Assembly: GCF_028864635.1 (NCBI RefSeq)
Contig: NZ_CP104850.1
Coordinates: forward strand, 626,001-690,000
Direction of reading: 5' to 3'
Length of the DNA stretch: 64,000 nucleotides
DNA from: Cloacibacterium sp. TD35
GTDB lineage: Bacteria > Bacteroidota > Bacteroidia > Flavobacteriales > Weeksellaceae
Shown: in pieces, positions 59,559 to 60,365 of the stretch
Position numbering within the stretch: position 1 is the stretch's first letter
Layout of the letters: every line of letters starts with the position of its first letter
Translations under genes and position numbers: made by a program
Notes under the pieces: model-generated
The model's input: only the letters and a program-made list of their open reading frames with translations
Database searches by the model: none
Told to the model about the DNA's origin: nothing

Positions 59559-59559
59559 C

Positions 59560-59638
59560 TTAGATAAAAAAACTTTTTATTCGCGCTAATGCAATTATTT
59601 TATTTGCAGCGAATTACGAAATGGTAATTATTATCTAA
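59560..59638. other. Nested inverted repeat after guaC
   Basis: The outer arms TTAGATAA / TTATCTAA enclose TTCGC...GCGAA and TGCAA...TTGCA in nested order. A transcript could fold into one long bulged stem. It lies just after the guaC stop and may protect or end that mRNA. Confidence 0.5.
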
Positions 59639-59672
59639 ACAGCTGTTAATCAAAGGATTTCTAATCATTTTT

Positions 59673-59704
59673 TTTGGAGATAAAAAATATTCTTTTTATA
59701 TTTG
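59673..59704 (+). promoter_or_regulatory. Consensus promoter of the candidate small RNA
   Basis: TTTG (59673-59676), 20 bases, then TATATTTG (59697-59704). This is one of the best promoter matches in the window, with no gene start behind it. Confidence 0.75.
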
Positions 59705-59708
59705 CACC

Positions 59709-59788
59709 CGAAAACACAAGTGCTCCAATAAAATATAATTCTTTGAATTATAACACCTTAATCCTCGATTAATTCGAGGATTTTTTTT
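59709..59788 (+). ncRNA. Candidate small RNA (about 80 nt)
   Basis: Between a consensus promoter and a T8 terminator there is no ATG and no usable open frame. The transcript would fold as an outer stem AAGTG/CACCTT (59718-59722 with 59754-59759, one bulge) enclosing TATAATTC-TTT-GAATTATA (59734-59752). The terminator stem AATCCTCGA/TCGAGGATT (59760-59782) follows. Its 3' end only touches the stop codon of the opposite nucleosidase gene. I recognise no known RNA family. The unit is inferred from signals alone. Confidence 0.6.
59760..59788 (+). terminator. Terminator of the candidate small RNA
   Basis: AATCCTCGA and TCGAGGATT form a 9-bp perfect stem, followed by T8. The T run is only on the plus-strand side. 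Confidence 0.85.
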
Positions 59789-60365
59789 ATTTTAAAAGCG
59801 TTTCTCTCAATTTTTTCGCTGCTTTTTTTACTTCTGTGCTCCAATCGTCTACTGCGTTTCCATCTGCACCATCAGAAATATATTTAAGACACAAAAATGG
59901 TAATTTTTCTTCTTTGCACACTTTTGCCAGAGCATAAGCTTCCATTTCTATCACGTTGTATTCAGAATTACAGTGCTCCATTTCGAACTGGTCTCCACTT
60001 CCGCAAATTCCATTCGGAACTTCTTCTAAAGCAACGCCGTGTTCTAGAATAATTTCACCATTAGCAAATGGTGTTTCAAACTTTTGAAAACCAAGCGCCA
60101 TCACCTCCATATCTCTTTGGATAAATTGCGTACAACACACCACATTTCCCTTATTAAAAGCCGTGCTTCCTGCGGTTCCCAAATTAATGATAATATCTGG
60201 ATTGTATTTTTCTATACCTTTAAAAAGATGATACGATGCATTAATCTTCCCTACTCCAGTAAAAACTTTCTGAAAATCATTAAATTCTTCTTGTGCTTCT
60301 ACTTCTAAGGCAAAAACTAAAAGCGGATTTTGGTAAATGGTTCCGTTGATATTTATTTCTTTCAT
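59787..60365 (-). CDS. Nucleosidase of the PNP/MTA-SAH family
   Basis: A 192-residue phosphorylase-fold hydrolase related to 5'-methylthioadenosine/S-adenosylhomocysteine nucleosidase. IIINLGTAGS (near 56), CGSGDQFEME and the purine/ribose-site VIEMEAYALAKVC (near 138) are visible. The catalytic-Asp region is CLKYISDGADGNA. It is shorter than the usual 230-residue MtnN, mainly at the N-terminus, but its core looks complete. The base specificity cannot be assigned. It converges on the candidate small RNA and is separated from fabG by that gene's terminator. Confidence 0.85.
   Translation of the reverse strand: MKEININGTIYQNPLLVFALEVEAQEEFNDFQKVFTGVGKINASYHLFKGIEKYNPDIIINLGTAGSTAFNKGNVVCCTQFIQRDMEVMALGFQKFETPFANGEIILEHGVALEEVPNGICGSGDQFEMEHCNSEYNVIEMEAYALAKVCKEEKLPFLCLKYISDGADGNAVDDWSTEVKKAAKKLRETLLK

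Follow-up and report, generated by a model that had tools for sequence, protein, structure and literature searches.

A candidate small-RNA gene conserved between guaC and a convergent gene in the genus Cloacibacterium

Small-RNA regulation in the Bacteroidota is little charted. The best comparison for the locus reported here is GibS (BTnc035) of Bacteroides thetaiotaomicron, which its authors call the first trans-encoded noncoding RNA of the Bacteroidetes with identified targets; its unpaired 5' part is reported to pair with start regions and repress the mRNAs (PMC7366714). GibS also exemplifies the usual plan of an intergenic small RNA (sRNA), namely a promoter, an unpaired 5' end, a hairpin and an intrinsic terminator (PMC7366714). 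Rfp18 of Flavobacterium psychrophilum is described as an independent transcribed region that is conserved in the genus and has a strong predicted structure; it is predicted to pair via its third stem-loop and affects metalloprotease mRNAs (PMC9723704). A further small, stable RNA of the Flavobacteriia is 6S-Flavo RNA (RF01685).

The locus lies in a window of 64,000 nucleotides (the whole stretch of DNA that was analyzed) from Cloacibacterium sp. TD35. The elements of this unit, numbered by position in the window, are as follows.

59673..59704, + strand: promoter of the Bacteroidota primary-sigma type, TTTG (-33), N20, TATATTTG (-7), found in the sequence and by a regular-expression scan compared with shuffles
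59710..59788, + strand: putative transcript of about 79 nt, its start placed by the position of the -7 box and the preference for a purine
59711..59722, + strand: conserved, probably unpaired 5' segment AAAACACAAGTG, with 0 variable columns in five species; AAAACACAA is present in 7/7 genomes
59718..59722, + strand: 5' arm (AAGTG) of a possible outer helix, paired in 30/30 cells and equaled by 2/1500 column permutations
59734..59752, + strand: inner hairpin TATAATTC-TTT-GAATTATA, with a stem identical in 7/7 genomes and a varying loop, folded in 7/7
59754..59759, + strand: 3' arm of the possible outer helix, CAC-C-TT with one bulged base, from the same pairing and permutation tests
59760..59788, + strand: intrinsic terminator, a 9-bp stem and a T run (59781-59788), found in the sequence and by a terminator scan

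The unit shares with GibS an intergenic position, its own promoter and intrinsic terminator, conservation within one genus and a conserved unpaired 5' part. It differs in that its promoter is of the canonical type whereas GibS has a non-canonical PM2 promoter, and in that GibS is expressed and its tested targets paired near start codons, whereas the unit is known from sequence alone (PMC7366714). Its likeness to Rfp18 is one of description, and the predicted pairing through a third stem-loop is a difference (PMC9723704). In Rfam 15, the unit matches no family at the gathering score, and only the tRNA-Val passes in the window. The best weak match in the interval was to Ref84 (RF02846), an Enterococcus sRNA, with 28.5 bits against a gathering score of 52; the two share a loose overall layout (unpaired 5' end, hairpin, terminator), and this resemblance is probably a chance one, being far below the cut-off and from another phylum. 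No covariance match to 6S-Flavo RNA was found at the unit. The only 6S-Flavo match in the genome is a divergent candidate elsewhere (C1:2180553-2180657, - strand, locus L266; 56.1 bits, E 2.4e-8, cut-off 85). Among the open PubMed Central papers listed for the subject, none names this RNA in its title or in the start of its abstract. A reading made from the sequence alone (the sequence-only reading) had held that no described RNA has this layout, a statement that was too strong, since the plan is usual for intergenic sRNAs such as GibS (PMC7366714).

The near-ideal promoter described in that reading is present, with TTTG at 59673-59676, a 20-base gap and TATATTTG at 59697-59704, and the same is true of its 9-bp terminator stem with T8: AATCCTCGA (59760-59768) pairs with TCGAGGATT (59774-59782), and two of the eight T residues also belong to the stem. 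Of the eight promoters of the form TTTG-N18-21-TAnnTTTG in the 64-kb window, two are followed by a terminator within 150 bases, those of the unit and of the tRNA-Val, both of which start with TATATTTGCACC. The mean number of such pairs in 40 dinucleotide shuffles was 0.000, and a looser promoter (TTG-N17-23) again gave two pairs in the window, with a mean of 0.050 in 40 shuffles. The terminator scan found 18 sites in 10 kb where 5.7 were expected, and a generic sigma-70 scan gave no support, with 27 sites found and 33.3 expected in 10 kb. Seven Cloacibacterium genomes were examined, and all have the promoter form TTG-N20-TAnnTTTG, with a spacing of 20, placed 6 or 7 bases before AAAACACAA. The terminator stem is likewise retained in all seven, with a T run that is interrupted in G002, G003, G005 and G006. 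In the paper on GibS, the -7 box is given as confirmed in Flavobacterium johnsoniae and the -33 box as not confirmed (PMC7366714). Judged by these sequence elements, the unit has the promoter and intrinsic terminator of a stand-alone sRNA, set apart from the flanking genes.

Folding of the RNA (59706-59790) gave a z score of -4.56, and 0/200 shuffles were as stable. In the minimum free energy (MFE) folds predicted for all seven genomes (z -2.88 to -4.90), the 5' end stays unpaired and both hairpin and terminator form. A further 4-bp helix encloses the terminator in four genomes of the larger species group (group A, below), and in those of group B the inner hairpin is 3 bp longer. The inner 8-bp stem that the interior had been said to form is formed by TATAATTC (59734-59741) and GAATTATA (59745-59752). 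The compensatory changes sought in this stem did not materialize, as it is invariant in all seven genomes and shows no covariation. Covariation was not shown in the terminator either, where the MAFFT alignment shifts the stem of G001 and G004 by one column and so undercounts changes. An outer stem had also been proposed, without positions, and was taken here as AAGTG (59718-59722) with CAC(C)TT (59754-59759). This 5-bp helix stays paired through the changes in the seven genomes, which bring in five further pair types and, in one case, alter both sides of a pair. Of all 5-bp helices allowed a single bulge at most, it is the most variable that remains fully paired. Column permutations matched its value in 1/500 cases (2/1500 in a rerun), and letter shuffles attained its score in 150/500, the alignment having only six distinct rows. 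It is energetically disfavored by 2.9-6.9 kcal/mol, and is absent from the MFE structures of all seven sequences and from the RNAalifold prediction. The outer helix directly abuts the terminator stem and could be helped by coaxial stacking on it; as a conserved RNA helix it is suggestive.

Conservation of the interval in close relatives had been set beforehand as a test, and the unit was found at the same place, between guaC and the convergent gene, in all seven genomes. Five of these (Cloacibacterium sp. TD35, G002, G003, G005 and G006) form group A, in which guaC diverges by 13-18% at fourfold sites; group B (G001 and G004, 30% apart) is 40-47% from group A. Among the five species of group A, the core of the unit (59711-59752) has 0/42 variable columns, as against 29/115 in the upstream spacer (Fisher 4.8e-5) and 48/148 at guaC fourfold sites (Fisher 1.1e-6), the TD35 intergenic interval having been trimmed to 228 bases for the column comparison. 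Between the two groups the flanks barely align; the -7 box is nevertheless kept, as are AAAACACAA, the 16 bases of the stem and a terminator stem. The proposal of a new small RNA thus holds as far as the Rfam cut-offs, presence throughout the genus and constraint on the core beyond that of the spacer are concerned, with transcription itself standing as a prediction.

Upstream of the unit is guaC, identified as GMP reductase by NCBIfam (643 bits, cut-off 492). The gene downstream, followed by fabG, is convergent in all seven genomes and carries the Pfam domain PNP_UDP_1 (phosphorylase superfamily); of the two neighbors named in the sequence-only reading, guaC is thus confirmed, and the second belongs to this superfamily, with its assignment as a nucleosidase found only below the NCBIfam cut-offs. 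A purine-related function for the RNA is not supported, as the sole evidence for it was the neighboring genes. The next gene is convergent in 7/7 genomes, so that a leader-peptide attenuator or riboswitch would have no gene on the same strand to regulate. The nucleosidase-like gene has its stop codon in contact with the T run in TD35; in G001, that stop codon lies about 150 bases beyond the unit, and the unit is still kept. G004 has a strong, separate guaC terminator ahead of the unit, and a similar one was seen by eye in G001. The unit is therefore not merely the guaC terminator, the idea that it is only a guaC 3' end was rejected, and in group B it stands apart from both neighbors, given this terminator and the distant nucleosidase-like stop codon of G001. 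No separate guaC terminator was found ahead of the unit in group A, and read-through from guaC into the unit could still occur in this group; the terminator check covered intervals cut at the nucleosidase-like stop codon and for that reason lists no terminator for G002, G003, G005 and G006. The guaC 3' flank itself (window 59559-59640) holds an inverted repeat, TTAGATAA...TTATCTAA, that is kept in the five group-A genomes, and its folding was not significant (z -1.47 and -0.74).

A covariance model (R1) drew on five rows from the genus, with G005 and G001 left out. It scored 73.7-111.8 bits in the seven genus genomes, including 111.2 for G005 and 73.7 for G001. In 316 family genomes it gave matches at E<=1 in 121, with only the seven Cloacibacterium genomes above 70 bits; the best match outside the genus was in G012 (48 bits), and the remainder reached at most 41.7. 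Over 395 order genomes, a set overlapping that of the family, five had matches at E<=0.001, three of them Cloacibacterium. Both searches used the stricter filters of Infernal, which lose weak matches. Two order-level matches (L046, L047) were rejected, as they lack a TAnnTTTG box between -80 and +60 and are located at the end of an ORF or close to it, and the -7 box was missing in four of five weak R1 matches inspected. The exact core pattern occurred in 6/320 family genomes, all Cloacibacterium (G001 differs by one base), and a pattern scan of the genome collection returned 51 stretches, three with the unit. A looser pattern, TTTGC-AAAACACAART, was found in 112/316 genomes, above its reversed control, and the 31 loci inspected by eye were coding sequence, dispersed repeats or other leaders. 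One match, in Chryseobacterium sp. ZHDP1 (L124, 28.0 bits), was rejected because by eye it looks like a dispersed AAACACAAAT...ATTTGTGTTTAA repeat. Neither R1, in the 316 family and 395 order genomes, nor the pattern scans yielded a clear member from another genus. In G017, from another genus, guaC adjoins a nucleosidase-like gene (by eye) with a plain terminator between them and no R1 match, and the RNA was therefore either gained in the Cloacibacterium lineage or lost outside it. The best reading is of a candidate RNA that, within the range of these searches, is confined to one genus.

Two other elements came up in these searches. The G012 locus (L045, 1501-1581) is a stand-alone unit in which TAGCTTTG and AAAACACAAATGATGAAGAAG occur together with a small hairpin and a terminator. 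It has a -7 box and a 16-codon ATG frame (MMKKKLIFKSARLNLL), lies beside a gene that we take to be hemB, and may be either a mini-gene or a distant relative. In a genus of the family designated g20 (probably Chryseobacterium) there is a recurrent leader composed of TGTACAGTACA, GCTGATCAGC and CCCATGTCAGGGAT (L137, about 1696-1815; L145, 1207-1328, - strand; L151, 1399-1524, - strand; L158, 1501-1622 and 2679-2800). It had no Rfam match in the three loci scanned, and RNAalifold gives two pairs with changes on both sides. Four of its five copies are found 40-44 bases before a small ORF, and three of these ORFs have leader-like starts such as MKKLNVSQMENLQGG.

The 5' sequence of the unit recurs elsewhere in the genus. 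AYTTGTGTTTT (motif AAAACACAAATG) has 26 sites in the TD35 genome, as against eight for reversed controls, and 224 against 103 when summed over the seven genus genomes. It precedes ORFs of at least 60 codons at 4/26 TD35 sites and at 9 of the 30 G001 sites compared (36 in all), and it also occurs in orphan units. One of these (TD35 C1:1916456, at about 1501 of L229) is made up of TAACTTTG and AAAACACAAATG plus a terminator, and G006 has a counterpart (L295). Another (C1:1612157, at about 1501 of L227) combines TAAATTTGCACC with AAAACACAAATGATG and what by eye is a hairpin followed by a T run, and has counterparts in G002, G006 and G001 (L276, L291, L263). Its hairpin is kept in the four genomes though the stem bases differ in G001 (by eye). 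In G001 itself (C1:349389, L241), AAAACACAAATG follows a -7-like box and is in turn followed by a hairpin with a T run. By script, a promoter and a terminator flank the motif at 2/26 TD35 sites (the unit and C1:1916456), at 1/30 G001 sites (the unit) and at 0/930 random positions. Because the motif recurs before ORFs and in orphan units, the 5' end of the RNA copies a translation-start leader of the genus; this sharing may reflect common ancestry with decayed small genes, mimicry or a common seed. Two tandem GACGAGTTTTGGCGC-like motifs were seen by eye ahead of short frames in TD35 (C1:8192, L167) and in G001 (C3:9699, L256), and a TAnnTTTG box comes after each copy. Four identical copies of a 329-codon ORF surround the motif at L174, L230, L233 and L236 of the TD35 genome, and probably represent an insertion sequence.

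On the opposite strand, CAYTTGTGTTTT, which is complementary to the 5' end of the RNA (AAAACACAAG being the 5' sequence of the unit), is found shortly before a terminator at L222/L247, L226/L258, L231/L191 and L261, and two of these cases are at matching places in TD35 and G001. A speculative and rather doubtful extension would place the unit in a small, undescribed set of orphan mini-transcripts that have their own promoters, share the 5' module AAAACACAARTG, in many cases with an ATG after it, and end in terminators that are unrelated to one another. They would mimic translation starts, either titrating a leader-binding factor or pairing with complementary CAYUUGUGUUUU stretches just ahead of the terminators of other transcripts (L222/L247, L226/L258). 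Besides the unit, the proposed set comprises C1:1916456 of TD35 (also in G006), C1:1612157 of TD35 (also in G002, G006 and G001) and C1:349389 of G001.

We put a probability of about 50% on the unit being a dedicated Cloacibacterium small-RNA gene acting in trans. The promoter and terminator, their conservation and the lack of a conserved frame are read directly from the sequence, and from them we infer transcription, its start point and trans action. RNA polymerase with the primary sigma factor would start near 59710, and the intrinsic terminator would end a non-coding RNA of about 79 nt with an unpaired 5' segment (AAAACACAARUG), the invariant 8-bp hairpin, the terminator stem and perhaps a transient outer helix. 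The 5' segment, unpaired in all seven predicted MFE folds, would most likely pair with mRNAs in trans, and the hairpin may confer stability or bind a protein. Exact 11-base searches of the genus genomes gave no convincing conserved sense-strand target of AAAACACAARU. Among the 20 ACTTGTGTTTT sites compared from the matches listed, there were three pairs each shared within a lineage (L192/L198, L201/L209, L208/L210) and none common to both lineages. A comparison that took in 20 G006 and 23 G002 sites gave a common site just behind an aldehyde dehydrogenase-like gene (by eye; L231/L191), in TD35 and G002 only. Eight loci (nine sites) of the 26 in TD35, besides the unit, have a counterpart among 30 of the 36 G001 sites, and are not clear targets because their opposite strand reads as start leaders or intergenic motifs. 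The coding part of the neighboring nucleosidase-like mRNA holds a 10-base complement, which was rejected as a target, being present only in the TD35 genome.

Other explanations have to be weighed against a trans-acting sRNA. If AAAACACAARTG is a translation-initiation leader, the RNA would be a tiny translated unit or the decayed remnant of a small gene that has kept its promoter, leader and terminator. In line with this are the 4/26 TD35 sites, where the same 11 bases lie at most 12 bases before an ORF, the 9/30 G001 sites in the same leader position, and sibling units with short frames (MIKKKRLSKYFERRFL... in TD35 and similar in G006, partly by eye). We nevertheless consider it unlikely, as the invariant part of the unit is its hairpin, and its start codon is GTG, ATG or GTA, opening 3, 8 or 0 codons. 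As the sequence-only reading stated, TD35 has no ATG or useful frame between promoter and terminator, GTG at 59720 opening only GTG CTC CAA TAA; this frame is found in group A, an 8-codon ATG frame in G001 and GTA in G004, and no conserved reading frame or common peptide runs through the seven genomes. The RNA would also be fully complementary to any 3' extension of the nucleosidase-like mRNA, and might regulate or end that mRNA in cis, as the convergent arrangement in 7/7 genomes and the contact of the TD35 T run with its stop codon would allow. The more distant gene end in G001, the restriction of the 10-base coding match to TD35 and the lack of a T run after the terminator stem on the minus strand argue against this, and such a role is quite unlikely.

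An RNA that acts by its shape, through protein binding or ligand sensing, would have the outer helix, an 11-base internal loop and the invariant hairpin as its active part. The consistent pairing of the outer helix (30/30 cells, five further pair types), the few column permutations that equal it and the invariant stem sequence speak for this possibility, which is improbable given the unfavorable energy of the helix, its absence from every MFE structure and the frequency with which letter shuffles reach its score on six distinct rows. The hairpin is a DNA palindrome too, and could be an operator, or the promoter and terminator could be a chance pair, with no functional RNA in either case. This we regard as very improbable: shuffles gave 0.000 such units, and the promoter spacing is kept in 7/7 genomes. 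The palindrome occurs in its exact form only at the unit, once in each of the seven genomes, and with at most two mismatches 69 times as against 45 for reversed controls (one strand, unit included), counts on which a repeated DNA-binding operator was rejected.

As a candidate the unit is well supported, and it is probably a gene for a small regulatory RNA of a familiar type. Being single-copy and genus-wide, and having a hairpin that does not vary and a defined 5' end, this candidate RNA gene would be easily testable in a culturable environmental bacterium. The Bacteroidota are said to make little use of Shine-Dalgarno signals, and the start-leader module, if functional, would point to control that imitates translation starts.
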